Below the pieces are notes generated by a model. It saw nothing but the letters and a program-made list of their open reading frames with translations, did no database searches and was not told the DNA's origin. From positions 1-43,020 of IMG/VR virus record IMGVR_UViG_3300032245_000908: a stretch of 43,020 nucleotides of DNA. One strand, 5' to 3'. The DNA comes from a virus. Positions 1 to 34,863 of this stretch are shown here, one piece after another (the stretch's first letter is position 1; each line of letters opens with the position of its first letter). The translations under genes and the position numbers were made by a program.

Positions 1-893
1 GCCAAGTGGCTTGGCATATTACCTACATCAATGTAGAATACTCTACGCTCAGGAGCACGTTGTACACGATAGATAATAATACTGTCTTCTAACAGTTCTT
101 TTTGTTTGAATACTTTAAAAATACTTTCTAAAAGGCTGTTACCAAACGGAAAGTTGTTATCAATGCCTTCGCTCATGCTAATATGAATCACATGTTTAGC
201 ATCAATTGCGTATTGATTTTGATTTTGACTGAATCTACTACCGGTGTTGTTGGTTGGAAAAGCACCAACCATACCTCTTGATCCGCCTGCACCGCTTTGT
301 CCTGTACCGCTAGCATTGCCGCCGTGATTATTACTTGGCTGTATAGCTGTTGTAGCAAGTGTTTCTAAGTTGGGATTAAAATCACGTATCATGTATTGTT
401 CAGGCTTTTTGCCTTCGCTTTCGTTTACAATGATTTTATCTACCTTGGCAGGATCAACATACATCCATGCCAGTGTTTCTGGATCACGGACAAAGAAGCT
501 ATCGCCATACTTGAAAGCATTACGTACAATTTTAAAGATACGTTTGTCAAACTTGTTTAGTTTAGTCCACTGTTGCAGAGCTTTTTTAATAATCTTGACT
601 TCTGTCCCTGTTGCTTTTTCTTTAAAGAAAGTCTGGAACGGTGTACGATTTTCATCGTTTGTTTGTGAGCAGAACTCGGCCAGGATATCCAGTGCCGCAT
701 TAACTTCTGAGTCTGCATCCATTGTGTCATACTGCCCGTAACGTTCTAAACGATTTGGATGACCAGCGTAGATGTCTGGTAGATAACTGCTGTAATTCAT
801 CCTAGCTGGATTTGCTGTGCCGCCCATGGAGCCGCTGATTGGACTTAGATTACCTTTTGTAGCTACTGGTGTAAAATACTTTTTCCAAGACAT
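1..893 (-). CDS. 20: Portal protein gp20, 5' part (cut by window start)
   Basis: The portal forms the dodecameric ring at the capsid vertex through which DNA is packaged and to which the neck and tail attach; in T4 it also nucleates prohead assembly. About 297 N-terminal residues are visible (T4 gp20 has 524); the 3' end lies beyond position 1. The start is ATG at 893-891 behind TTAGGA. The near-invariant T4-type portal motif RAPERRVFYIDVGNMP lies close to the window edge, preceded by a typical stretch with DADSEVNAALDIL and FKYGDSFFVRDPET. A Gly/Ser/Asn-rich insertion (around GGNASGTGQSG) interrupts the region before it and is probably a surface loop. The gene follows the tape-measure gene on the same strand after a 13-nt gap, so the two are probably co-transcribed. 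The identification is secure. Confidence 0.96.
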   Translation of the reverse strand, partial: MSWKKYFTPVATKGNLSPISGSMGGTANPARMNYSSYLPDIYAGHPNRLERYGQYDTMDADSEVNAALDILAEFCSQTNDENRTPFQTFFKEKATGTEVKIIKKALQQWTKLNKFDKRIFKIVRNAFKYGDSFFVRDPETLAWMYVDPAKVDKIIVNESEGKKPEQYMIRDFNPNLETLATTAIQPSNNHGGNASGTGQSGAGGSRGMVGAFPTNNTGSRFSQNQNQYAIDAKHVIHISMSEGIDNNFPFGNSLLESIFKVFKQKELLEDSIIIYRVQRAPERRVFYIDVGNMPSHL

Positions 894-3299: not shown

Positions 3300-4178
3300 A
3301 TGCAACCAACAACCTTTCCAACGCCAGGAGCAAGACAAAATCCTTTGGCTAGCTATATGCGACAGCCAAAGATCTATATCAAGTTACCTAGTCAAGGAAA
3401 CTACTGGCCTGCTAAAAGTATCAATATGCCAGAAAATGGCGAAATTCCAGTTTATTCAATGACTGCAAAAGATGAATTGATATTTAAAACCCCCGATGCA
3501 TTGCTAAATGGTCAGTCTATAGTTGATGTTATACAAAGCTGTTTGCCAAATATTAAAGATGCATGGCAAGTACCCAGTATCGATCTTGACATGATTTTGA
3601 TTGCCATCCGACTTGCTACCTATGGTGAGACCATGTCTATCAAACATACAATTCCCGGAACTAAAGAAGAAGTCGAGTACGATGTAGATCTTAGAAACTT
3701 ACTTGATCAGCAGAGTCAGAACATTTGGGCAGAGCAGGTTGCAATTGATAATGATATGGTTGTATATGTAAGACCATTGACATATCGTCACCTAACACAG
3801 GCTAGCATGAAAAGTTTTGAAACCAGTAGAATCATGAACATGGTTAACGATGATACCATACCCGACGATAAAAAGATTGAAATGTTTCAACAGAGTTTTG
3901 CTATACTAACAAAAGTCACAGTTGACATGATGAGCGAAGGAATTTACAAAATTGTTACTCCTGATACAGAAGTAACTGATAAGAAATTTATTCAAGAATT
4001 TGTTAACAACAGTGACAAGGTAGTATTTGAAAAAATCAACCAACACCTATCTGAAATGAAAAAATTAAATGATCTAAAACCGTTGGTATGTTCTACGTCT
4101 GAAGAACAACAAGCACAAGGTGCTCCTGCAACTTATGAAGTTCCAATTAACTTTAATCAATCAGATTTTTTCGCATGA
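3300..4178 (+). CDS. 26: gp26-like baseplate hub / tail assembly protein
   Basis: T4 gp26 is listed as a baseplate hub component needed for hub assembly. This protein has 292 residues (T4: 208). After ~20 variable residues it has the family opening RQPKIYIKLPSQGNYWP, then DELIFKTPDALLNGQSIVDVI and DLDMILIAIRLATYG, which are the recognisable core of the T4 baseplate hub family. The start is ATG at 3300 behind CGGAGAAAA. The stop TGA (4176-4178) overlaps the downstream ATG (4175) as ATGA. The final codons GAT TTT TTC GCA TGA contain the heptamer T TTT TTC in frame, so some ribosomes may shift -1 and make a ~367-residue gp26-gp51 fusion (see the 4166-4246 entry). If so, this protein may be a tail-assembly chaperone rather than a structural hub subunit. 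Family membership is secure; the chaperone role is inference. Confidence 0.88.
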   Translation: MQPTTFPTPGARQNPLASYMRQPKIYIKLPSQGNYWPAKSINMPENGEIPVYSMTAKDELIFKTPDALLNGQSIVDVIQSCLPNIKDAWQVPSIDLDMILIAIRLATYGETMSIKHTIPGTKEEVEYDVDLRNLLDQQSQNIWAEQVAIDNDMVVYVRPLTYRHLTQASMKSFETSRIMNMVNDDTIPDDKKIEMFQQSFAILTKVTVDMMSEGIYKIVTPDTEVTDKKFIQEFVNNSDKVVFEKINQHLSEMKKLNDLKPLVCSTSEEQQAQGAPATYEVPINFNQSDFFA

Positions 4179-4246
4179 GGCTTTTGACTTTAACTCTTAA
4201 CGAAATCCAGGAAGTAGTTACAGAGTTAGAAAAAGAGTCAAAAGCC
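4166..4246 (+). promoter_or_regulatory. Predicted -1 programmed ribosomal frameshift signal
   Basis: The slippery heptamer TTTTTTC lies at 4166-4172 and is phased as T TTT TTC in the gp26 frame. A 6-nt spacer (4173-4178) follows, then GGCTTTTGACT (4179-4189), which is perfectly complementary to AGTCAAAAGCC (4236-4246), giving an 11-bp stem around a 46-nt loop. The -1 frame continues as CGC ATG AGG, exactly the frame of the gp51-like gene. Expected product: gp26 residues 1-291, one Arg, then the 75 residues of gp51-like. Heptamer, spacer length and stem match known -1 frameshift sites such as phage lambda G/GT. The stem and phase are seen directly; frameshifting itself is inferred. Confidence 0.72.
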
Positions 4247-4402
4247 CTTAAAGAAGAAATTTACAAGTTGGCCTGGTACATGCGTGGTGCTATCAGCATT
4301 ACAGAAGCATACACTCTTGACTCTCAAGATAGAGAAATTATAAACAAGATTATTTTAGATAATCTGCAAACTGCTAAAGAAACTGGATTGCCGTTCTTTT
4401 AA
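4175..4402 (+). CDS. gp51-like small protein (baseplate hub assembly / chaperone T-part candidate)
   Basis: This small protein has 75 residues. It has an N-terminal coiled-coil-like segment (EVVTELEKESKALKEEIYKL), the motif WYMRGAISITEAYTL, and it ends in LPFF. Small proteins with a WYMRG motif and LPFF end directly follow gp26 in many T4-like environmental phages; T4 has gene 51 (hub assembly catalyst, larger) at this place. The assignment to gp51 is by position and general pattern only. It may be translated alone from ATG 4175 (overlapping the gp26 stop as ATGA, with no clear Shine-Dalgarno of its own), as the -1 frameshift extension of gp26, or both. It ends convergently with the minus-strand gene downstream; the stops overlap by 4 bp and no terminator hairpin is visible there. 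Confidence 0.65.
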   Translation: MRLLTLTLNEIQEVVTELEKESKALKEEIYKLAWYMRGAISITEAYTLDSQDREIINKIILDNLQTAKETGLPFF

Positions 4403-6000: not shown

Positions 6001-6429
6001 CTAAGTTTTTTTGATTATGTGTGAGCCATGTACACGGACTTGTATGTGTCCATTGTAGTATTCGTCGGATTCTAATACCTTGCGGTCGAATTGTTCTCGG
6101 GCCTCAATGTAAGATGTTTCTGATTTGCTAGTACAATAATATAATATTTCGCGGGTGAATTTATCTATGCCTAGTGTTTGTATGTCTGCTGTTAAGTTAG
6201 GACTGGACCCGTAATATTCCTGCCAGTCGCTGTCGATTTTGCTTCGAATCTTCTTTTTCTTCTTGGTGCCGTTCTTTAACTTTACAGTCTTGTAGGTCGT
6301 TTTACTAAACTTTGCTAATTTTTTGCCAATATATTTCCGCCCCGTAACTGTGTTGGTAATGAGATAAACAAAACCAACACATGTTTCAGGTAACTCTGTA
6401 ACTATAGCACCTTGATACAGCCAAGTCAA
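6001..6429 (-). CDS. GIY-YIG family nuclease, T4-like-phage type
   Basis: This 142-residue protein carries the GIY-YIG signature as GFVYLIT (~19-25) and KYIGKK (~33-38), then a Lys-rich stretch, the motif DWQEYYGSS, an F-T-R-E-I-L strand and an E-A-R-E-Q-F helix whose Glu is a likely metal ligand. It resembles small stand-alone GIY-YIG proteins in environmental T4-like phages and homing endonucleases of the Seg type, but it has no DNA-binding domain beyond the core. It is not the T4 endonuclease II sequence. The only possible start consistent with full length is TTG at 6429-6427, because the in-frame TAA of the upstream gene is immediately before it (TAATTG). It is the last gene of the gp55-gp47-gp46 operon. 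Substrate is unknown: DNA repair or degradation, or homing. Confidence 0.78.
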   Translation of the reverse strand: MTWLYQGAIVTELPETCVGFVYLITNTVTGRKYIGKKLAKFSKTTYKTVKLKNGTKKKKKIRSKIDSDWQEYYGSSPNLTADIQTLGIDKFTREILYYCTSKSETSYIEAREQFDRKVLESDEYYNGHIQVRVHGSHIIKKT

Positions 6430-21511: not shown

Positions 21512-24500
21512 ATGGCAAATTCAATTAAAACAATCAATTTGTTACCAGAGTTTTTAAGAACAGATAAAAATTCTAAATTTTTATCTAGTACAATTGACCA
21601 ATGGATCAAAAAGCCTGAGCTAGAACGTATCGATGGTTATGTAGGATCGGTGTTAACTCCTACATATAATTCTACGGCAGATGTTTATATTTCAGAATCA
21701 CTGCCTTTGCGAAAACAATATCAACTTGAGCCTGCAGTCGTTTTAAAAGATAATCAAAATGCTGTAAAAGGTGCAGTGGCATTTGATGACTTGGTTAATG
21801 AAATTTCAGTCAGTGGCGGTCAACCACAGAATATTGATAAACTATTTAGAAGTGAATTCTATTCTTATGATCCGCATATTGATTTAGATAAGTTAGTTAA
21901 TTATACTGAATATTATTGGTTAACTACAGGACCGAATACTGTTGTTATAAGTGGTCAGCCGACAAATACAACTAGTACATTCACAGTAAGAGACAACGAA
22001 GTTGAATCTGCTTTTATTTTTACACCAAACGGACTAACACCCAACCCTATTGTTACTCTATATAGAGGGAATACATATAATTTTGAAGTAAGTTCTGTAT
22101 ACAACTTTTATGTAAAAACAGATGCGTCATCGGGGCCTTTTGGAGCATTAACACACAATATAACCAACAACGGTATTACAACCGGTACAGTTACATTAAC
22201 CATTGATCAGTATACTCCGGAAACTTTATATTACATTTCTGGCACCGATGACAAGGTACAAGGACAATTTGTTGTTAAAGATTCTACACAAAATTCTATT
22301 ATCAATGTAGAAGAAGAAGTTATTGGAAAAAAGAATTATAGATCGGGCACAGGAGTAGAATTATCAAATGGAATGAAAATTCGTTTTGGTGGAACTGTTA
22401 TTCCTGAGCAATATCAAAATAAAGAATACTGGGTAGAAGGTGTAGGAGAATCTATAAGACTAGTTGATTATGACTTATTGACTTCACCTGAATCCATGGC
22501 CACGGTGTATGATGAAAGTTTTGATGCCACAGGATTTGATAACTTTCCATTTGATAACTTTAAAACACTACCGATAACACCGGAATATATTACAGTTAAC
22601 CGTGCCAGCCAGGATTTAAATCCATGGTCGCGATATAATAGATGGGTACATTCGGGTGTAATCAAGGCAAGTGCAGAGGCAGCTGGGCAGGAACCTGTTT
22701 ATCCAGTTAATTTACGAGCCAAGAGACCTATTGTTGAATTTAAGGCAGATTTAAAATTATATAATTTTGGAACAACCGGCATACAAAATGTTGACTTAAT
22801 TGACAATGTAACACGTGATGCATTTTCTATGGTTGAAGGGTCTGCAGGTTACCATGTTGACGGAGTGTTATTACAGCAAGGAAATCGAATCATATTTAAT
22901 GCAGATACTGATTCAAGTGTTAGAGGCAAAATATACGAAGTAAATTATGTTACAGTTAACAACTATAGAACCCGTATACAGTTAGTTCCAGTAACTACAA
23001 GCATAGCTGGCTATTCTACTTCTGTAAATTACGGAACAACTGCCGCCGGCACAGCATGGTGGTACAATGGCACAAATTGGTTATATTCACAACAACATAA
23101 TAAACTTAACCAAGCTCCATTTTTTGATCTGTTTGATAAAAACGGAAATAGTTATAGTGATACAACTGCTTATCAAAGTAATTTTAGCGGAACTAAAATA
23201 TTTGGGTACGAAGAAGGAACAAACGGAAGCAACGATGCGGTGCTAGGTTTTCCATTAAAATATCAAAATAGTGTTGGCGTTGGAAGTTACCTTTTTAAAA
23301 ATTATTTTAGTACAGATCAAATATCTGTTTCAGTTAACAACGTAGAAACTATTACTGTATCTGCTGGCCAGACATTTTTAAAATTTGCTCACTTATCAGG
23401 CGACGTGTATGCAAATGTGTGGACATCTGCAGAACCATATTGTATTCCAATAATACAATTTCAAAATATTACAACAGCAACTTCTTTAGTTGAAGTAACT
23501 GCTATAGATAACCCAACTATGGCAACCTTCACGCTAGATGTTATTGTTGATAATAAAAAATTAGACACCACAAACTATACAACTATTTCTAAAAATAGTA
23601 AATTATACATTTCTTTTAAATCGGAATTACAAGTAAATTCTAGTCTATTGTTTAAACTATATACAGATGCCAATGTAAACAATAACGGATACTACGAAGT
23701 TCCTCTGGGACTAACTAATAATCCATTGAACGGCCCTATAACTAATTTTACACTAAGCGAACTTAGCGACCATTTAGGAACAGCAGTTACTAGGTTGCCT
23801 AATTTTGTAGGAACATTTCCCGGAGTTAGTAATTTACGTGATAGGCCCGACGTTGCTAGATACGGTAGTAGATTAATCTCTAATGCGAATCCAATGGCAT
23901 TTGCACATTTGTTTATTGGAAAAAAAGAACATAGTGTTATCAATGCTATTACAAAAGTAAGCGATCAGTACAACCAATTTAAAATGTCATTTTTAAACAA
24001 AATGATAACGGTAGGAAATCTTAATGATACTATTGCGTCAGTTGACACAATTTTAAGAGAATTAAATTCCGGCAAAAATTTACAATCTCCGTATTTCTTA
24101 TCAGATATGATAGCATACGGGAATGACAAGATAACAAGACAATGGACTGTTAAAAATATTAAAAATACCGTGTATCCTATAACATCTGATTTTAATCCTA
24201 CACTTTTAGGTTTACGATCTGTGTTGGTATATATCAATGGAGAACAGATATTATTAGGGCAGGATTACAATTTTATTATTAATGATTCAGCTATTGAAAT
24301 TTTAACTGACTTAACAGTAGGAGATGTAATTACTGTTAACGACTACGCTACAACGGAAGGATGTTTTATTCCGCCAACTCCTTCGAAGCTTGGACTACAT
24401 CCTAAATTTAAACCAACAAAATATGTTGACGATACTTATTCAACTCCAACTAATGTAATACAGTGTCACGACGGAAGTATAATGGTTGCCTACAACGATT

Positions 24501-27151
24501 TTAGAGATGACATTATACTTGAATTAGAAAAAAGAATTTATAATAATATTAAAGCAACATACCAAAGAGATCTCTTTGATATTAATTCTGTATTACCGGG
24601 CGCCTTTAGGAATAGTCAATATAGTTTAACTGATTGTAATTCTATATTAATTAATGACTTTATTAAGTGGTCTGGATTCTACGGAATCGAATACACAGAA
24701 AATTCTACATTTAATCCCGACAATTCTTTTACATGGAACTACTCGGGCAGTACCAACAAATTACTATCTATTCAAGTAGATGGAAATTGGAGATCGATAT
24801 ATAAATTTTTCTATGACACAGATCGCCCCCATACCGCCCCGTGGGAAATGTTAGGGTTTGAATCTCAACCAACCTGGTGGGAAGGTGTATATGGCCCTGC
24901 TCCTTATACCAATGGTAATTATATTTTATGGGAAGATTTAGAAAAAGGCTTGATAAAATACCCTAGCGGGTGGAACATTGATCCAGTTTATAGTCGACCT
25001 GGCTTAAAAGATATTATACCCGTTGACGAAGCAGGCAATTTAATTGACCCTACTGTATTATTATTAAGTGAGTATACTCCTTATAGCGTTAGACAAAATT
25101 GGAAATTTGGCGACCAAGGCCCAGCAGAGACAGCATGGAGAAGAAGTAGCTATTGGCCGTTTGCCTTACAAAAATTGCTGGCTCTATTAAAACCGGCAAG
25201 TTACGCATCGCTAATGTATGATCCAAGTAGGATGTCTAAAAGTCAAGCCGGTCAATGGTCGTATGATAATGCAGGATCGTTTTTAAATCCTAAAAATGTA
25301 AAAGTATTTGATACTCAAACTACATTAACTAGCGGATATAGTGTACTTCTTGTCGAGGCAGGAAAACAAAGATCTATTAATTATGTAGATGAATTAACAC
25401 AAGATTTAAATTTCTTTGATATAAATTTATTTCATAAGGTAGGCGGATTTGTTAATAAAGGCAATCTGCAAATTGTTATCGATGCCTATGATCCTGCTAG
25501 CACAGGACCTGGTGCGTTATTACCTCAAGAAAATTATCAGTTATATCTTAACACAAGTAATCCAATTAACACAACAAGTATTTCGGGATTAATTATACAA
25601 AAAGTATCTGGAAAATTTGTTATAAAAGGATATGACAAATATCGTCCATATTTTACTGTATATACTCCAATAAGAAATAGTTCAACTCCTACACTCAGCG
25701 TTGGCGGAATCAGTTCTCCCTACATAAATTGGACAGCAGGAACAGCAGATGCAAACGCATCTAATCTTAATTCGATCGACCTTACAACAGCAAATAGTTC
25801 TCCAGTCGGCAAATTTTATAAAACAGGACAAATTGTTAGTTACGGCAACAGATATTACATAGTACTTAAAGATCACTATGCAGAAAGTGTGTTTAATACA
25901 GCATACTATAAGGCATTACCGTCATTACCAATATCTGGTGGTGCAACAGTTCAAACATATTATAAGTTTGATAAGGTTGCGGTCCAAATTCCTTATGGAA
26001 CACAATTTGATAATGCACAACAAGTCTATGACTTTATTGTTGGATATGGTGATTGGCTAGGCGATCAAGGATTCGTATTCAACCAATACAACAGTAATTT
26101 AAATTCTGTACTAGATTGGAATTTTACCGCTAAAGAATTTTTATACTGGACAACACAAAATTGGGCAGACAACAGTATCATTGCTCTTAGTCCGTTTGCT
26201 GATCAACTTCAGTTTAAATTTAGTGATAGTGTTGTAGATAATATTTTTGATAGTTTTTACGATTACAATGTATTAAAAGAAAACGGTTTTGAATTTCCTA
26301 AGAATAATTTAAATATTGGCCGAGATGAAGGCGTTTGTACAATTAGATCTATTAATACCACAGAAGGAATTTATTTTGCACAATTAAATTCTGTACAAAA
26401 AGAACATGCTATGGTATTTGATAACACCACGGTGTTTAATGATACTATATATGATATTGAAACTGGATATCGTCAACGTCGAGTGAAGTTAATTGGATTC
26501 CGTACCGCGAACTGGAACGGCGACTATTTCACTCCTGGATTTGTATACGACACTGCACAAATAAACACCTGGTCGGAATTTACAGATTACAAATACGGAG
26601 AAGTGGTACGATTTAATAGCAAATATTATTCAGCCATTCAAGACGTAATAGGATCTAACAAATTTAATTTTACCGAATGGGTACTACTCGGAAGCAAGCC
26701 GGTAGCTGAATTGATTCCAAACTTTGATTATAAGATTAATCAGTTTGAAGATTTCTACAGTCTTGATATTGACAACTTTGATAGCAACCAGCAAGAATTA
26801 GCACAGCATTTGGTTGGATATACTCCGCGGGTATACTTAAACAATATCTTTATTAATCCTATTGCACAGTATAAATTTTATCAAGGATTTATTAAAGAAA
26901 AAGGGTCAAAGAATTCTGTTATCAAATTAAGTAAGGCAAGTATACAAAACTTACAAGGCGCCATTACGTTTAATGAAGAATGGGCATTTAGAGTAGGTGA
27001 GTACGGATCATTTGGAACGTATAACGAAATAGAAACAACATTGCACGAAGGCAGTTTTACAGGAAACCCTCAGTCTATTAGTTTTGTTATACAGTACCTA
27101 CAATCTCCAACGATTTGTTATTATATAAAACACCTAAAGATTTATCTATAG
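21512..27151 (+). CDS. 7: Giant gp7-like baseplate wedge protein, N-terminal part (ends at apparent frameshift)
   Basis: In T4, gp7 (1032 residues) starts wedge assembly with gp10. This frame has 1879 residues. It begins with MANSIKTINLLPEFLRTDKNSKFLSSTI and NYTEYYWLTTGP-type sequence, typical of the huge wedge proteins that follow gp6 in environmental T4-like phages, and has ETAWRRSSYWPFALQKLLALL, a hallmark stretch of that group. The last ~15 codons (from about YLQSPTICYYIK) look unlike the family. The -1 frame, open from 27082, continues with normal sequence (VPTISNDLLLYKTPKDLSIV). I conclude that this and the next entry are one gene of 13,352 nt (about 4,450 residues) interrupted near 27082-27110. 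No slippery heptamer is seen there, so a one-base deletion (real or assembly error) is most likely. Exact T4 equivalence is by position. Confidence 0.8.
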   Translation: MANSIKTINLLPEFLRTDKNSKFLSSTIDQWIKKPELERIDGYVGSVLTPTYNSTADVYISESLPLRKQYQLEPAVVLKDNQNAVKGAVAFDDLVNEISVSGGQPQNIDKLFRSEFYSYDPHIDLDKLVNYTEYYWLTTGPNTVVISGQPTNTTSTFTVRDNEVESAFIFTPNGLTPNPIVTLYRGNTYNFEVSSVYNFYVKTDASSGPFGALTHNITNNGITTGTVTLTIDQYTPETLYYISGTDDKVQGQFVVKDSTQNSIINVEEEVIGKKNYRSGTGVELSNGMKIRFGGTVIPEQYQNKEYWVEGVGESIRLVDYDLLTSPESMATVYDESFDATGFDNFPFDNFKTLPITPEYITVNRASQDLNPWSRYNRWVHSGVIKASAEAAGQEPVYPVNLRAKRPIVEFKADLKLYNFGTTGIQNVDLIDNVTRDAFSMVEGSAGYHVDGVLLQQGNRIIFNADTDSSVRGKIYEVNYVTVNNYRTRIQLVPVTTSIAGYSTSVNYGTTAAGTAWWYNGTNWLYSQQHNKLNQAPFFDLFDKNGNSYSDTTAYQSNFSGTKIFGYEEGTNGSNDAVLGFPLKYQNSVGVGSYLFKNYFSTDQISVSVNNVETITVSAGQTFLKFAHLSGDVYANVWTSAEPYCIPIIQFQNITTATSLVEVTAIDNPTMATFTLDVIVDNKKLDTTNYTTISKNSKLYISFKSELQVNSSLLFKLYTDANVNNNGYYEVPLGLTNNPLNGPITNFTLSELSDHLGTAVTRLPNFVGTFPGVSNLRDRPDVARYGSRLISNANPMAFAHLFIGKKEHSVINAITKVSDQYNQFKMSFLNKMITVGNLNDTIASVDTILRELNSGKNLQSPYFLSDMIAYGNDKITRQWTVKNIKNTVYPITSDFNPTLLGLRSVLVYINGEQILLGQDYNFIINDSAIEILTDLTVGDVITVNDYATTEGCFIPPTPSKLGLHPKFKPTKYVDDTYSTPTNVIQCHDGSIMVAYNDFRDDIILELEKRIYNNIKATYQRDLFDINSVLPGAFRNSQYSLTDCNSILINDFIKWSGFYGIEYTENSTFNPDNSFTWNYSGSTNKLLSIQVDGNWRSIYKFFYDTDRPHTAPWEMLGFESQPTWWEGVYGPAPYTNGNYILWEDLEKGLIKYPSGWNIDPVYSRPGLKDIIPVDEAGNLIDPTVLLLSEYTPYSVRQNWKFGDQGPAETAWRRSSYWPFALQKLLALLKPASYASLMYDPSRMSKSQAGQWSYDNAGSFLNPKNVKVFDTQTTLTSGYSVLLVEAGKQRSINYVDELTQDLNFFDINLFHKVGGFVNKGNLQIVIDAYDPASTGPGALLPQENYQLYLNTSNPINTTSISGLIIQKVSGKFVIKGYDKYRPYFTVYTPIRNSSTPTLSVGGISSPYINWTAGTADANASNLNSIDLTTANSSPVGKFYKTGQIVSYGNRYYIVLKDHYAESVFNTAYYKALPSLPISGGATVQTYYKFDKVAVQIPYGTQFDNAQQVYDFIVGYGDWLGDQGFVFNQYNSNLNSVLDWNFTAKEFLYWTTQNWADNSIIALSPFADQLQFKFSDSVVDNIFDSFYDYNVLKENGFEFPKNNLNIGRDEGVCTIRSINTTEGIYFAQLNSVQKEHAMVFDNTTVFNDTIYDIETGYRQRRVKLIGFRTANWNGDYFTPGFVYDTAQINTWSEFTDYKYGEVVRFNSKYYSAIQDVIGSNKFNFTEWVLLGSKPVAELIPNFDYKINQFEDFYSLDIDNFDSNQQELAQHLVGYTPRVYLNNIFINPIAQYKFYQGFIKEKGSKNSVIKLSKASIQNLQGAITFNEEWAFRVGEYGSFGTYNEIETTLHEGSFTGNPQSISFVIQYLQSPTICYYIKHLKIYL

Positions 27152-30100
27152 TTCCTACAGATTATTCTCCGCTAAACACTTTTATAACAACTTCGACATC
27201 TAATTTTGAATTAATGTCTGCAGGTTATGTAAATTTAAATGATGTTACTTCAACTGCGTATAACGAATACAGTTTTATTTCAATTGCTAATACTAGAGCA
27301 TTAAACGATGGTGAAGTTATATGGCTAGGAAATACCAACGATGGTGACTGGGATGTTCGCAGATATCAGAGATCTACAGCTGGTATTATTTCAGTACAAA
27401 TATCAACACCGGCAGAAAGTATTTTGTTCACAACCGATATTCCGCATAGATTAAGTATTGGAGAAATTATATCAGTATCTCAATACGATGATCAAGTTAA
27501 CGGAGTTTACAGAGTAACTGATGTATTATCTCAAACAGAGTTTACAGTAAATTCTACACTTTCTTTTATTACTACCTTTACAACAGATTCGCCTGGATTA
27601 TTGTTTAAGTTTGAAAGTGTTAGATATAGTAACTTTGATTTAATTCCTAGCGATCAAGACTTGCAAGAGTTGCCGTATGGTTCTAAATATTGGATTGATA
27701 ACGATATTTCTAGTAGCTGGAAAGTCTATGAAAAAATTGACAATTACTCAATAACACATATTACAACTAATACTAGTGGATCATCGTATGGATCAACTAT
27801 ATACAAAAATAAAGGCGAAAACATAGTAATTGAAACATCGCCGTACTATTCTTCTCCGAGTAGATTTGATGTTGGTACAATATTTGTCAAATACATCGAC
27901 CTTGATGGATATATTTTCAATTATAATATTAACCAAAAATCATATAATCAATATTATACCGGTACGGTGCATACAGAATTTGGTGCCTCGGTAGTATATG
28001 ATAGTCAAGAATATAACAATACCGGCTTTGGAATATTCTATGCCGGTGCCCCTGGCGCAAGCGGAATAAAATCTTCAAGTGGTCCTAGTGGTCTTAGATA
28101 TGCATCACAGGCAGGATCTGCTTCGTCTCGTGTACACGAAGGCCTTGTAAAGATTAGTAGTGTTGATCCTTTATTGTTTACAGAATTTACAGAAAAAGTG
28201 TTGTTGAGTCCTACACCTGGAAACAATGATCGCTTTGGACAATCGATATTTGTACAAGCTAATAATACATCGACTAAAAAGTTGTTAGTCGGCGCACCTG
28301 GAAATAATGGAGTTTTAACAGGGTCTGCACATCTGTACAATATTTCGTTAACCACTGTTACAAATATTACATTTAACACAACTATTGCTCCTCCGGTATC
28401 TGCGGCAGGTATTGAATGGGGTTATAGTATTTCCGGAATACCAGATGCTAGTATAGTTACAATTAGTGCTCCTAACTATTTGCAAGGAACAGGGTATGTT
28501 GCAGTACTAACTGGCACAAATTACAGTAATCTTTCTCAAATAATATTTGGTAATACTGTTGGTTTTGATAAGAGAAGTAGATTCGGTGAACAGGTATTAC
28601 TATCAAACGATGGAGAATACTTATTTGTAACTGCTCCTGGATTTATTAATTTTGATAATTCACGAGGTGCAGTTGTAGTATTCCAGAAAGTTAATTCAGT
28701 ATTCACACTTACACAATTTATCAGCAACCCAGTAGCTGGCGCAGGAATGGTTTTTGGACAGGACCTTGACATTAGTACTGGTGCTGACAAATTAATTGTA
28801 TCGGCATTAGGAACTGATAGAATTGATAGATCGTTTGATAACAAGCTAGCTGACAATACAACGTTTGATAGTAAAACTACAATATTTGAAGACAGCATGT
28901 CAAAATCAGGATGTGTATTTGTTTATGATAGATACGAATCACGTTTTGTTTTTGCACAAGAAATTAATCCAGGTAATCTAACTACTGCTACTAACTTTGG
29001 TCAAAGTATAGTTTTAGACGAAACTGAAGTTTTAATCGGTGCCCCGAATACTAATATTAATGCCGATGGTCAAATTGATTATAGTGCAACTTACAGATAT
29101 AGTAAAATTGATCCATCTGCGAACAGTTGGAAAGTACTAAGACAGTTTGATAATTTAGTCGACGTGAACACTTTGCAAAAAGTTAGGCTAATTGACACAT
29201 TCACTGATAGTATAATTACATATCTTGATGTTATCGATCCTTTAAAAGGAAAGATTGCAGGAATAGCTGACGAGGAAATAAGATATAAAACATCAATTGA
29301 TCCTGCATGTTATTCAATTGGTACAACTGCGACAACGGTGCTGACAGATACAAACTGGACCACTGCACAGGTAGGTGAACTATGGTGGGATCTATCAACT
29401 GTTAAGTATGTCTGGTACGAACAAGGCGATTTGAATTATAGAAAAAATAACTGGGGAAGACTGTTCCCTGGATGTAGTATCGATGTTTATGAATGGGTAG
29501 AATCTACTTACCTTCCTAGCGAATGGGCAGAGCTTGCAGATACAGCATCTGGAATAGCGCAAGGCATTAGTGGACAACCAAAATTTCCCGATAATACAGT
29601 ACTATCTGTAAAACAGGGTTATGATGCAATTTCAAACTCTTTCACTAACATTTATTATTACTGGGTAAAAAATAAAGTTTTAGTTCCTGAAACAAAAAAT
29701 AGAAGAATATCATCTTATGATGTAGCTTTGTTAATAAATGATCCGTCTTACGATGGTGCTATGTATGCCGCCATAATATCTGGTCACGGTGTGATGCTTT
29801 CTAATGTTGCTTCTGAGTTAGTAGGCGATCGTATTAATTTAAATATTGCGTTCGATAATATAAAAAATCAAATACCTCGACATACAGAATGGTTATTACT
29901 TGAAGAAAATTCATCAACCTCTGCACCTAACACATTGTTAGAGAAAAAATTAATTGACAGCTTACTAGGACACGATTCTCTTGGTATAGCAGTTCCAGAT
30001 CCTAGTTTGTCAAGTAGAGTTAGATATGGTATAGGTATTAGACCTCAACAAACATTGTTTAAAGATAGGTTAGGCGCTTTAAGAAATTTAGTTGAATTTT

Positions 30101-33100
30101 CAAACTCTGTATTAAAAGAAAATATCACTACAGGTCGATATAATTTTGCTAATTTAAATGCCCAGGAACTTATTCCTGATCAATATTCACACGAATACGA
30201 TCGCATTGTTGAAGACAATTATACCTTAGAAACCATTGATACAAGGAAATTAGTACAAGCAGAATTAACAGCTCAAGTGTACGATGGAAAAATTATCGGA
30301 GTTACTATTACCAATCCTGGGTTTGGATACATTATAAGCCCTACGGTAACATTAATCGGAAGTTGTACAGAAATTGGTAAAATCACCACCACCATTGATG
30401 CAAACGGTCGTGTAACAGCAGTTGACATTGTTGATGCGGGTAACGGCTACGCCGAAGATCCTAAAATTGAAGTAAGACCATTTACTGTTATAGTTCAAGC
30501 TGATAGCGCATACAATGGCAAATGGTCAAAGTTTGCATGGAAAAGCGAACTTGGATTGTTTGTCAGAGCTCGAACACAAAAATTCAATACATCTTTGTAT
30601 TGGAATTATATAGACTGGACAAGTGCCGATTATAATCAATATCAAGATTATGTATTCACAGTTGATGCAATTTACGGAATCTACACATTAACTGACGTGT
30701 CGGATGGTGATTATGTTAAAATTAAAAATAGCGGCGATGGCAACTTTATCATATTAGAAAAAATACCAGCCGGGACAGTAGGAACATTCGGCAACGGATA
30801 TAATATTGTTTACAAACAAAATGGAACAATACAAATATCAGATGCTGTATGGAATACAGCTAATAGCACTTATGGCTTTGACCAAACAGCAAGTTATGAT
30901 CAAACACTATATGACCAAACACCGGATTTAGAATTACAATATCTATTATCTGCATTAAAGAATGATATTTTTATAAACGAGTTAAAAGTCAATTGGAATA
31001 ATTTCTTCTTTAAAGCAGTAAAGTATGCCATGTCTGAACAAAAATTGCTAGACTGGGCATTTAAAACTTCGTTTATAAATGTTACCAATAATGCTGGAAC
31101 ACTTGATCAACGTCCTGTTTATAAACTTCAAAATACACAATACTTTGAAGATTATATCAGCGAGGTAAAACCGTATCATAGTCAAATAAGATCATTTACA
31201 ACACAGTATGATAAGTTAGAACAATCTCATAGTTATACTACCGACTTTGATCTTCCAACACAGTATAATAGCAATTCTGGAAATTTTGAATCAATTGCTT
31301 CGAATAGTACATTAACTAATGTATATCCTTGGAAATCTTGGAATGACAATAAAACATTTACAGTTGGTAGTATTGTAGTTGGCGAGCCCGGTGCAGGATA
31401 TACAATATCACCAACAGTTGAAATTACTGCACAACCAGGAGATTTAGGAACAGGTGCAACAGCGGTTGCATATATACGATCTGGTCAAATAATTTCTATA
31501 GAGGTTACTAATCCAGGAAGTGGGTATCTAGTTCCTCCGACTGTGAGTATTAAAGGTGGCGGCAGTACAACATTAACTCCTGCTAGAGCATACGCACAAC
31601 TATACAACGGTAAAGTACGATCAAATATTATTGAAATGAAATTTGATCGTATTAATAGATATAATCAAATTGGAGATCCGCGTGTTTCAGACTCATTTAT
31701 TTGTAACGGAATTCAAAATGAATGGATACTTGGATGGGTAGCTGACGCAAATAAATCTGATATCACGGTTACCCTTGATAAAATACGTGTACTAAGTGCA
31801 GATTACACCATAACTTATTATACAGAAAAATACAATGGTTACAATAAGAAATATTGTAAAATTGTTTTCTTAAATTATATTCCAAAGAATAATCAGATAC
31901 TGGCTGTGTCTTATAGAAAATCTAAAACTTTGTTCACGGCACTAGAAAGAATCGAAAACTATTACGAGCCGACTAGTGGCATGCCTGGAAAAGTTCCAGC
32001 TCAATTAATGAGTGGTCTAGAATATCCTAGAACACAAATTCAAGGATTGGGATTAACTGCAACAACCCATTGGGATGTATTGTTTGGGTCTAATGTGTAT
32101 TCTGGATTTGGTGATGCGTCATATGCAGACGATATTTCTTATTACACTAAAGTTTCTATAACATCTACCGCAACTGCCGGCACTAGCACAGTATCAGTTA
32201 ATACTACTACTGGTTTAATGGTTGGACAATATGCAAATATTATCAGCAATACTGTAAATCAGTTCAGTACGTCAACTGTAAAAATATTGTCAATTAATAC
32301 AGCAAGCTCTAAGGTAACATTTAATTCTTCAATTAGTAATACATTAACTGATGCTACAATTGAATTATGGTCGTACGATGCAAATTCTACAACCTTAGAT
32401 ACCGCAATTGACGGCGGCAACTTACTGTACAATACTGCATTGGGAATTAATCCTGATGAAATTATTATCGACGGCGATAAATTTTATACTCCAAATACAG
32501 GATTTTCTCCAGAAGAAATGTTAGATGGACAGGTGACAGAAAGTCTCGGTATTAATGTATATACAAAAAATGCCAATGGTGCTCCATTAATTTTTTCTAG
32601 TTCGTTTGATATTGTTGCAGGTACATTAGTTACACAACCGTTGACTGTAATTCCAACAACAGTTAACAGTATTACTATAAGTTTCAATAATACAGTATTT
32701 TCGTACAACTCTACTACTAATTTTGTTTCTGCTAAAGAATTTAGTATTGACTGGGCTAGTGGTTCTCTTATACTTCCTCCGCAACCGCTTGGTGGTAAAG
32801 TGTCATATAGAATTATTGGTATTGGCGGAGGCAACCCCGATGCATTTGCTGGTGTTGTTGATTATCAAATTTTAACAGATTATGACGAACCAGTTGGTAC
32901 TCTTGTAAGTTTATCAGGAATTAACACCATACAAAGTGCATTTGTCACAGTTGATGGCATGGCCATTAGTACTGGTACATCGGGATTATATTACACCCTT
33001 GGTCCTGACAGTTTATCTAATGAAAGAGCCGCCGTAACAATATACAATTTGCCAAGCGGATCTCAGACATTACAAGCATGGTTCTTTGGAACTGAGGTCG

Positions 33101-34863
33101 ATTATTACAATGAGTTAACCGAACAAATATTCACAGTTGGTCAAGGACTGCCAGTAACTTCTTTTGTTCTTTCAAATCCTCCTAGTACAGTACATCCTGC
33201 TGATGCCGAAGTACTTGTTGAAATAAAAGACGGTGGCGGCCGTAGACAACTATTACCACCATACATAAGTTATTATCAAGTAACAAATACAAATGATAGA
33301 ACGTTTACTATTGATAACCATGTATTAAGACCACCTTCGACCTATAACCTAACAACAGTTAGAGTATATCGAAATGGTGTTGCATTATTACCTGGCTTTG
33401 ATTTTAATGTCAATGTTAACGATAATACTGTAACTGTTTACCCGAATATTTTAGCGGCAGGTGATGCTATTGCTGTACTTGGCCTAGTTCCGGGTGATTA
33501 TGATTATGATATAGTTGGAAACATTTTGAATGTTCCTTTGCAATCTGGACAGGGCGTTTTAAATGCAGAAATAAAAATTATCACATACAACGATCAAGAT
33601 GGTATGCTAATACAAACTGAAAGATTTCCAGGAAATCCCAACAAACGTTTTAAACTTAGCAGACCAATTTTACACTTAGATTATGCATGGGTAAGTTTAA
33701 ATGGAGCTCCGTTAAAGAGTGGTATTGATTACGATATACTTGACGATGCAGTGACATTGCAATTATCTGATGCATTTATTATAACCACAGCGGATGACAT
33801 TGTAGTTACTACTATCAGTAGTAATAAACTATCATCTACAGTGCTTGGATATAGAATTTTTATAGACATGCTTGGAAGAACTCATTACAAGCGTCTAAGC
33901 AAACAAGCAACAACTCGTTTAACACGACCTTTATCGTATACAGATAAAGAAATTTATGTTGAAGATGCATCGGTGCTAACTCCGCCACTGCTTTCACAGA
34001 AAATACCGGGCGTTGTGTTAATTGATGCTGAACGAATTGAATATTTAGAAATTGACGGAAATACTTTAAGAAAGTTACGCAGAGGAACACTCGGAACTGC
34101 TCCGTCTTTTTACTCCGATATTAATACAAAAGTAATTGATCAAAGTCCGAGTCAGACAGTTCCCTATACTGAAATACCTAAAAAACAAATTCAGTTTACA
34201 CGTTCGTCTACTAGCACTTATAAAATTAGCACCAGTACATTTAGTACCGCAACTACATTTAATACAGCTACCGTTGTAAGATCTGATGGAATTTTGTTAT
34301 CTTCAGATTTTATAGCAGAAAATCAAATTGCTGTATATTATGGAGGCAGAGAACTGAGAAAAACAGGAACATTTATACACGATACAACATTTGCATATGA
34401 CAGTCCTCCTGGTTCTGTTCTTGGCACAACAGCAACAGTATCAGGGCTTCCTTTAACATCTACTATGGGAGATTCTTACATTGTAACTTCGACAAATCAA
34501 GTGTGGGTATATACCGGTGATACTAAAATTGATGCAGTTAACGGATATGTTTACCAAGGGTTAACATACCTTGCTCCTGAGTTTACTGTTAATACTTCTA
34601 CTGGCGTTTTAATGTTAAATATGTCTAAAGAGGTCCAAGATGATATCGAGCTAGTTATTGTACAAAAACAATACAGCCAGACAGCAGAATGGAACAATTA
34701 TGGAATTTCGTTAATGAATAGTACTACAGATCCTGCAAAATTCTTACAACAACAGCCCGCAGAGCTACCAGATATTTGGTATTATGGCGGTGATGTTACA
34801 CTAAGAACTAGTGGAGGAACTCCATTAACTGATGGAAATCAGGAACCAATACAAGGATTTTAA
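27115..34863 (+). CDS. Giant gp7-like wedge protein, C-terminal part, with FG-GAP beta-propeller
   Basis: This is the continuation of the previous entry in the -1 frame. The nominal start at 27115 is a TTG without a ribosome-binding site inside the upstream gene, so it is probably not a real start. Of 2582 residues, ~300-665 hold about six FG-GAP/integrin-like propeller blades (FGQSI..., LLVGAPGNNG, LFVTAPGFIN, VLIGAPNTN). A wedge-type segment follows (IAVPDPSLSSRVRYG, RPQQTLFKDRLGALRNLVEF). Two GxGYxxxPTV-type repeat pairs lie at ~1063-1120 and ~1420-1480. The C-terminal third is a series of beta-rich modules ending near DIWYYGGDVTLRTSGG. The FG-GAP and GxGY modules are typical of extracellular binding proteins, suggesting that the rim of the baseplate carries adhesive or calcium-binding domains. 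gp8, gp9 and gp10 are not recognised separately here. Confidence 0.78.
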   Translation: MLLYKTPKDLSIVPTDYSPLNTFITTSTSNFELMSAGYVNLNDVTSTAYNEYSFISIANTRALNDGEVIWLGNTNDGDWDVRRYQRSTAGIISVQISTPAESILFTTDIPHRLSIGEIISVSQYDDQVNGVYRVTDVLSQTEFTVNSTLSFITTFTTDSPGLLFKFESVRYSNFDLIPSDQDLQELPYGSKYWIDNDISSSWKVYEKIDNYSITHITTNTSGSSYGSTIYKNKGENIVIETSPYYSSPSRFDVGTIFVKYIDLDGYIFNYNINQKSYNQYYTGTVHTEFGASVVYDSQEYNNTGFGIFYAGAPGASGIKSSSGPSGLRYASQAGSASSRVHEGLVKISSVDPLLFTEFTEKVLLSPTPGNNDRFGQSIFVQANNTSTKKLLVGAPGNNGVLTGSAHLYNISLTTVTNITFNTTIAPPVSAAGIEWGYSISGIPDASIVTISAPNYLQGTGYVAVLTGTNYSNLSQIIFGNTVGFDKRSRFGEQVLLSNDGEYLFVTAPGFINFDNSRGAVVVFQKVNSVFTLTQFISNPVAGAGMVFGQDLDISTGADKLIVSALGTDRIDRSFDNKLADNTTFDSKTTIFEDSMSKSGCVFVYDRYESRFVFAQEINPGNLTTATNFGQSIVLDETEVLIGAPNTNINADGQIDYSATYRYSKIDPSANSWKVLRQFDNLVDVNTLQKVRLIDTFTDSIITYLDVIDPLKGKIAGIADEEIRYKTSIDPACYSIGTTATTVLTDTNWTTAQVGELWWDLSTVKYVWYEQGDLNYRKNNWGRLFPGCSIDVYEWVESTYLPSEWAELADTASGIAQGISGQPKFPDNTVLSVKQGYDAISNSFTNIYYYWVKNKVLVPETKNRRISSYDVALLINDPSYDGAMYAAIISGHGVMLSNVASELVGDRINLNIAFDNIKNQIPRHTEWLLLEENSSTSAPNTLLEKKLIDSLLGHDSLGIAVPDPSLSSRVRYGIGIRPQQTLFKDRLGALRNLVEFSNSVLKENITTGRYNFANLNAQELIPDQYSHEYDRIVEDNYTLETIDTRKLVQAELTAQVYDGKIIGVTITNPGFGYIISPTVTLIGSCTEIGKITTTIDANGRVTAVDIVDAGNGYAEDPKIEVRPFTVIVQADSAYNGKWSKFAWKSELGLFVRARTQKFNTSLYWNYIDWTSADYNQYQDYVFTVDAIYGIYTLTDVSDGDYVKIKNSGDGNFIILEKIPAGTVGTFGNGYNIVYKQNGTIQISDAVWNTANSTYGFDQTASYDQTLYDQTPDLELQYLLSALKNDIFINELKVNWNNFFFKAVKYAMSEQKLLDWAFKTSFINVTNNAGTLDQRPVYKLQNTQYFEDYISEVKPYHSQIRSFTTQYDKLEQSHSYTTDFDLPTQYNSNSGNFESIASNSTLTNVYPWKSWNDNKTFTVGSIVVGEPGAGYTISPTVEITAQPGDLGTGATAVAYIRSGQIISIEVTNPGSGYLVPPTVSIKGGGSTTLTPARAYAQLYNGKVRSNIIEMKFDRINRYNQIGDPRVSDSFICNGIQNEWILGWVADANKSDITVTLDKIRVLSADYTITYYTEKYNGYNKKYCKIVFLNYIPKNNQILAVSYRKSKTLFTALERIENYYEPTSGMPGKVPAQLMSGLEYPRTQIQGLGLTATTHWDVLFGSNVYSGFGDASYADDISYYTKVSITSTATAGTSTVSVNTTTGLMVGQYANIISNTVNQFSTSTVKILSINTASSKVTFNSSISNTLTDATIELWSYDANSTTLDTAIDGGNLLYNTALGINPDEIIIDGDKFYTPNTGFSPEEMLDGQVTESLGINVYTKNANGAPLIFSSSFDIVAGTLVTQPLTVIPTTVNSITISFNNTVFSYNSTTNFVSAKEFSIDWASGSLILPPQPLGGKVSYRIIGIGGGNPDAFAGVVDYQILTDYDEPVGTLVSLSGINTIQSAFVTVDGMAISTGTSGLYYTLGPDSLSNERAAVTIYNLPSGSQTLQAWFFGTEVDYYNELTEQIFTVGQGLPVTSFVLSNPPSTVHPADAEVLVEIKDGGGRRQLLPPYISYYQVTNTNDRTFTIDNHVLRPPSTYNLTTVRVYRNGVALLPGFDFNVNVNDNTVTVYPNILAAGDAIAVLGLVPGDYDYDIVGNILNVPLQSGQGVLNAEIKIITYNDQDGMLIQTERFPGNPNKRFKLSRPILHLDYAWVSLNGAPLKSGIDYDILDDAVTLQLSDAFIITTADDIVVTTISSNKLSSTVLGYRIFIDMLGRTHYKRLSKQATTRLTRPLSYTDKEIYVEDASVLTPPLLSQKIPGVVLIDAERIEYLEIDGNTLRKLRRGTLGTAPSFYSDINTKVIDQSPSQTVPYTEIPKKQIQFTRSSTSTYKISTSTFSTATTFNTATVVRSDGILLSSDFIAENQIAVYYGGRELRKTGTFIHDTTFAYDSPPGSVLGTTATVSGLPLTSTMGDSYIVTSTNQVWVYTGDTKIDAVNGYVYQGLTYLAPEFTVNTSTGVLMLNMSKEVQDDIELVIVQKQYSQTAEWNNYGISLMNSTTDPAKFLQQQPAELPDIWYYGGDVTLRTSGGTPLTDGNQEPIQGF
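28020..29110 (+). repeat. FG-GAP / integrin-like beta-propeller repeats (protein level)
   Basis: About six units of the form FGxS...DG..LxVGAP...G.V.VY are spaced roughly 60 residues apart within the giant wedge protein. Clear units are AGAPGASG, VGAPGNNG, VTAPGFIN, VSALGTDR and IGAPNTNI. Integrin propellers have seven blades, so one blade may be divergent. The repeats are diverged at DNA level. Confidence 0.7.

Follow-up and report, generated by a model that had tools for sequence, protein, structure and literature searches.

The window, i.e., the whole stretch of DNA analysed here, is a virus record of 43,020 bases in which a gene of the T4 gp26 type is flanked on one side by a large divergent ORF and on the other by a short ORF in the -1 frame (Table 1). 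The gp26-type gene ends in GAT TTT TTC GCA TGA, with the heptamer standing in the X_XXY_YYZ phase. Beyond the spacer, GGCTTTTGACT (4179-4189) and AGTCAAAAGCC (4236-4246) form a perfect inverted repeat of 11 bp, and the helix between the two arms reaches 13 pairs (11 Watson-Crick, plus one G-U and one A-U) around a 42-nt loop. The RNA fold of positions 4160-4260 comes to -30.5 kcal/mol (z -5.44), a value as good as which was found in 0 of 200 dinucleotide shuffles. Following a -1 slip, the frame would read FF-R-M-R-L-L... down to its stop, and the predicted fusion would comprise 291 + 76 = 367 residues. The initial annotation had located the heptamer, the 6-nt spacer and the 11-bp inverted repeat at these positions, had put the fusion at about 367 residues and had described an ATG/TGA overlap with the -1 frame open beyond the gp26-type stop, all of which was borne out by direct reading and by count.

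Table 1. Features of the gp26-type locus in the window, with the basis of each assignment.
Feature	Position	Strand	Basis
Candidate tape-measure ORF, 771 aa	907..3222	-	Divergent position; note in the record of RaK2 ORF088
gp26-type gene, proposed short TAC (TAC-N), 292 aa	3300..4178	+	ORF list, PF12322, phrog_150, AlphaFold2 model
Slippery heptamer T_TTT_TTC, in frame	4166..4172	+	Direct reading and conservation
6-nt spacer holding the ATG/TGA overlap	4173..4178	+	Direct reading
Proposed TAC-C, an extension in the -1 frame (76 aa past FF; stop at 4400-4402)	4172..4402	+	Reading and selection
ATG of the -1 frame, overlapping the gp26-type stop	4175..4177	+	Probably incidental; not conserved
Downstream stem, 5' arm	4179..4191	+	Helix scan, fold z -5.44
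Downstream stem, 3' arm	4234..4246	+	Helix scan, fold z -5.44

As an ATGA overlap always sets the second frame at -1, the phase of the downstream ORF alone is weak evidence of frameshifting. The ATG, which overlaps the TGA at 4176-4178, has no Shine-Dalgarno-like run directly 5' of it as judged by eye, and is not conserved, being replaced by ATA in a locus 89% identical in which the other elements are retained (L002), in L003 and in others; this ATG is probably incidental.

The gp26-type protein of the window matches the Pfam family PF12322 (T4_baseplate) with an E of 1.1e-15 and 58.4 bits, i.e., above the curated cut-off of 24.5, as well as phrog_150, named 'baseplate hub' (E 7.2e-18). Its AlphaFold2 model (pLDDT 86.9, pTM 0.82) retrieved 45 matches from BFVD at E<=0.001, many of them named baseplate hub or baseplate proteins, and none from the PDB with Foldseek at E<=0.001. 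Regarding solved relatives, comparison of alignment A1 with PDB sequences returned five matches, the best having an E of only 0.066. In the structure comparison, the HK97 tail assembly chaperone 2ob9_A appeared at rank 32 (Z 5.9, rmsd 4.8, 102/107 residues, over 23..255 of the model), which is below the level excluding chance, and the unrelated rows around it are mostly aligned to the long helices of the model at about 148-257; this weak alignment is no more than suggestive of a TAC-like fold. Uncharacterised proteins of 438-548 aa from the Ralstonia phages RP12 and RSF1, the Erwinia phage Special G and the Achromobacter phage Motura also match the model, with E from 7e-7 to 1.2e-5, and may possibly lead to the tail assembly chaperones of those phages.

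Relatives of the gp26-type gene fall into jumbo-type and cyanophage-type loci. Among phage records, 63 match the window gp26-type ORF at E<=0.01, all with less than 60% identity, and the 13 that were examined are named phages with genomes of 287-490 kb. The heptamer T_TTT_TTC lies 10-40 nt before the stop in 11 of these 13 jumbo phages, namely Phosso, Atu_ph07, PA5oct, PBECO4, RaK2, SCTP-2, CBB, Vibrio 2.275.O, XaC1, Munch and GAP32, and takes the form T_TTT_TTT in XacN1 (L068) and CM1 (L071), where the stop is 37 and 40 nt from its first base. Of the 58 environmental relatives, the 57 loci reaching the gene stop all carry an in-frame TTTTTTC whose first base is 10 or 19 nt ahead of the stop codon, the -1 frame being open; the remaining one (L058), whose gene is cut by the contig end, was left out of the heptamer counts. 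For the cyanophage type, the best 80 of 276 loci were used, and in 80/80 of these T_TTT_TTC precedes the stop by 10 nt. All told, with the cyanophage-type loci limited to the best 80 of 276, the heptamer is present in 151/151 loci reaching the gene end (149 TTTTTTC and 2 TTTTTTT). The phage HTVC008M, which is outside the 151 loci, has T_TTT_TTT at the end of its gp26.

Reduction of the 151 loci to 77 diverged representatives (44 jumbo-type and 33 cyanophage-type) revealed that the codon before FF ends in T in all 77, while the encoded residue differs between them (N, S, D, H, A, R, Y). From synonymous usage, a T-ending codon throughout has a log10 probability of about -19 and the exact Phe codons one of about -49; these values disregard the common ancestry of the representatives and are therefore not independent. 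The frameshift signal is not due to chance, and looks real and old. The initial annotation had proposed looking for the heptamer and the -1 phase in related phages, where both were indeed encountered.

The frame entered by a -1 slip is under purifying selection, with a median pN/pS of 0.10 (33 disjoint pairs) vs 1.56 (31 pairs) and 1.89 (29 pairs) for the other two frames. It is complete in 70 of the 71 jumbo-type loci, the exception (L034) running off the contig, and it spans 61-68 codons in the cyanophage-type loci (best 80 of 276). At the junction, FFR is invariant in the 32 aligned jumbo-type members; it is not universal, reading FFQ in PA5oct, FFY in XacN1 and CM1, and FFL or FFH in some cyanophage-type loci. 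Pfam returned no family for the window -1 ORF (4175-4399) at E values up to 1, and the extension is predicted to be all-helical (pLDDT 87.3, pTM 0.62), with nothing convincing for this model in BFVD (best E 0.85) and no consistent family in PHROG, where two families were each matched by 1 of 32 members. As tblastn of the window -1 ORF against the phage collection gave three records, reaching only Phosso and Atu_ph07, the extension in the other named phages was assigned by its position and frame behind the gp26-type match. In the existing records, the extension ORF is annotated as 'gp51' in S-PM2 and as 'hypothetical' in several jumbo phages, and is uncalled in RaK2 and PA5oct; none of the gp26-type CDS rows carries a joined flag in the 13 examined phage records (that of CM1 being devoid of annotation).

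The downstream stem was scanned by recording, for each representative, the start of the strongest contiguous helix over 41 offsets after the heptamer. This helix starts 4-8 nt past the heptamer in 27/44 jumbo-type and 22/33 cyanophage-type representatives, where about 5 and 4, respectively, would be expected for an even distribution over the 41 offsets, and elsewhere in 17/44 and 11/33. Across the 44 jumbo-type representatives, the mean helix score peaks at offset 6 (18.5 vs 6.9-10.0 at offsets 13-40). The arms vary in sequence, and the loops in size, from one lineage to another, and a fold z below -2 is found in only 19 of 57 distinct jumbo-type sequences (mean z -1.8). Since the arms lie within the coding -1 frame, protein constraint may contribute to the stem. 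The stem is thus frequent and preferentially placed but not universal; the conservation that the initial annotation had proposed to test is seen for its placement in a majority of representatives and not in the others.

With high confidence, the -1 ORF is considered to encode a C-terminal extension reached by a proposed -1 ribosomal frameshift, the locus thus specifying a short/long pair of tail-assembly chaperones resembling lambda G/GT. In the proposed mechanism, (i) most ribosomes would stop at the gp26-type TGA and yield the short chaperone, (ii) the stem starting 6 nt downstream would hold up some of them, (iii) the ribosomes so held would slip by -1 on U UUU UUC, both tRNA-Phe re-pairing with UUU, (iv) the slipped ribosomes would bypass the stop and append 76 residues, so that a long chaperone of 367 aa results, and (v) the two forms would constitute a TAC-N / TAC-NC pair acting on the tape-measure protein during tail assembly. 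What the sequences show is the signal itself, its conservation, the coding selection on the -1 frame and the position of the stem; the slippage, its rate and the chaperone role are what we infer. A G/GT-type pair had been put forward in the initial annotation, and of this proposal the part that stands is the junction, where a conserved -1 signal connects the gp26-type (PF12322) protein with a short ORF under selection, as in such a pair; the chaperone role would follow from kinship and analogy.

In lambda (gpG/gpGT) and P2 (E/E'), a minor long form arises by a -1 slip towards the 3' end of a short tail gene. Short/long pairs made by frameshifting within tail clusters act as chaperones in lambda and elsewhere, which counts against the idea that the frameshift is real but that its products are a structural pair of the baseplate hub instead of tape-measure chaperones. 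The chaperone role is put forward because of such pairs and because of homology to T4 gp26 and gp51. Table 2 of a T4 review (2010) gives both gp26 and gp51 as hub assembly chaperones (PMC3004832), and the same review, in its treatment of the hub, has gp51 needed for assembly yet absent from the particle and cites genetic studies placing gp26 in the hub (PMC3004832). The last point, as well as the PHROG name 'baseplate hub', would suit a structural pair, against which stand the listing of both proteins as chaperones, the absence of gp51 from the particle and the weak alignment that covers most of the HK97 tail assembly chaperone; a structural pair is thus regarded as unlikely.

Adjacent ORFs would also be accounted for by two distinct genes, the second having a start that overlaps or is coupled, with the T run being incidental, and the overlapping ATG of the window is indeed shared, at that codon, by Phosso and Atu_ph07, while the downstream ORFs are annotated separately in the S-PM2, GAP32 and CBB records. 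An ATG occurs up to -1-frame codon 12 in 15/71 jumbo-type and 52/80 cyanophage-type loci (the latter, here and below, being the best 80 of 276) and is lacking there in 56/71 and 28/80. Extended to ATG, GTG or TTG, a start is present within that limit in 34/71 and 62/80, and absent in 37/71 and 18/80; in PA5oct, the whole -1 ORF is devoid of any start codon. The start-less loci argue for frameshifting in only part of the set, because the remaining loci have a start codon. Against separate genes, moreover, the heptamer is found in every one of the 151 loci, and the conserved -1 reading begins at the heptamer, while the 0-frame stop is 10-40 nt from its first base, which leaves this arrangement very improbable. 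Equally slight is the chance of transcriptional slippage, in which one U added on the T run would put some mRNAs in the -1 frame: all 151 loci have a run of six or seven T, but in 149 of them a C follows the sixth T, the run being no longer, slippage of this kind usually requires longer runs, and the phased TTT TTC with a helix often 4-8 nt downstream fits ribosomal slippage better. The start-less loci, the T6-then-C pattern and the stem thus make both readings a poorer fit than ribosomal frameshifting.

In T4 itself, gp26 and gp51 both match PF12322 (E 8.2e-65 and 1.8e-53), as does the window protein, and gp51 is one ordinary gene product composed of a gp26-type domain and a C-terminal extension. 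Unlike in the window, the two genes are apart and on opposite strands, and no T_TTT_TTC-type heptamer was seen near the end of gene 26. In a comparison set from which L088 was excluded, the C-terminal part of T4 gp51 was clearly related to the cyanophage-type extension (hhalign 96.8%, E 3.1e-10, the best of 50 column-shuffled controls being 0.023), whereas the jumbo-type extension was weakly related to the cyanophage-type one (E 0.0014; best shuffled 0.022). A direct link between the jumbo-type extension and T4 gp51 proved weak as well (E 0.0052; best shuffled 0.0066), only the cyanophage-type extension linking clearly. Judged from sequence, T4 gp51 is the whole long form, paralogous to gp26, and T4 seems to encode the short and the long form in two genes. 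The label 'gp51-like gene' of the initial annotation is therefore imprecise: the window -1 ORF lacks a PF12322 domain of its own, whereas T4 gp51 has both parts, so that the ORF corresponds at most to the C-terminal extension of gp51. The excluded locus, on one IMG/VR contig (L088:2501), encodes a gp51 of the T4 type whose reading frame is broken after 120 aa, an interruption which is either an assembly error or real.

In the cyanophage S-PM2, gp26 ends in TTTTTTC followed by a -1 ORF, and the annotated gp51, 'baseplate hub assembly catalyst' (L170:1691-1864; S-PM2 151190-151363; 174 nt), starts after the stop and inside the -1 extension. The true start of S-PM2 gp51 is probably the frameshift in gp26. 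The gp51 of HTVC008M, annotated over 138 nt, looks like the same truncated call. A history that is somewhat more probable than not would have the U UUU UUC site, frequently accompanied by a stem some 6 nt downstream, as the ancestral route to the gp26-type long form, preserved almost unchanged in sequence from the jumbo phages of Proteobacteria to cyanophages; the T4 lineage would have lost it by duplication into 26 and 51, and the 'gp51' of cyanophages would be a truncated call of the extension.

Vladimirov et al., writing in Virology in 2022, reportedly found frameshifting to be conserved in several T4-like groups, with T4 using genes 26 and 51. The PRFect paper cites this work for the occurrence, in T4-like phages, of short and fused forms as separate genes (PMC10885494), and the Adele paper for -1 signals of the polyT kind in 'TAC-N genes of T4-like phages' (PMC12846349). 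By these citations, such an arrangement has already been proposed for T4-like phages, and the view taken in the initial annotation that a site of this type is not established there is out of date. As far as the citing papers describe them, these phages resemble the window in having a gp26-type TAC-N and a -1 polyT frameshift, and differ from it in that the candidate tape measure of the window is divergent. The TAC locus of the Pseudomonas phage Adele (Vandenendeviridae), for which a -1 site with the polyT motif GTTTTT is proposed, likewise has an open -1 frame beyond TAC-N, but differs by its motif, its phage family and a tape measure lying downstream (PMC12846349). What is added here is the breadth across jumbo phages, the near-invariant heptamer and the positioned but non-universal stem, and none of the titles listed in searches of open-licence PMC texts dealt with this jumbo-phage site. 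The window resembles lambda gpG/gpGT and P2 E/E' in the proposed -1 slip close to the 3' end of the short tail gene; lambda has another heptamer, and the gene order relative to the tape measure differs. Annotation of the small ORF that follows genes of the gp26 type is corrected, as it very probably encodes the C-terminal portion of a frameshift product. Cultured phages of E. coli, Klebsiella and Synechococcus carry testable sites, and the pairing bears on the roles of T4 gp26 and gp51 in hub assembly.

As regards gene neighbourhood, a divergent ORF of more than 400 aa adjoins the gp26-type gene in 36/44 jumbo-type representatives, and the record of RaK2 ORF088 bears the note 'similar to ... 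tail tape measure protein'. The divergent 771-aa ORF of the window is as such a candidate tape measure by position. The placement next to the tape measure, which the initial annotation gave for lambda and P2, is for the window positional only. Identification by profile failed, comparison of the divergent ORFs (36/44) with the cyanophage downstream ORFs (18/33) and T4 gp29 giving no match (hhalign probabilities of 0.5, 0.1 and 0.1). Elsewhere in the window, a 142-aa ORF on the minus strand (6001-6429) shows, by eye, a GIY-YIG-nuclease-like stretch near its start, and two very large adjacent ORFs, of 1879 and 2582 aa, occupy positions 21512-34863.
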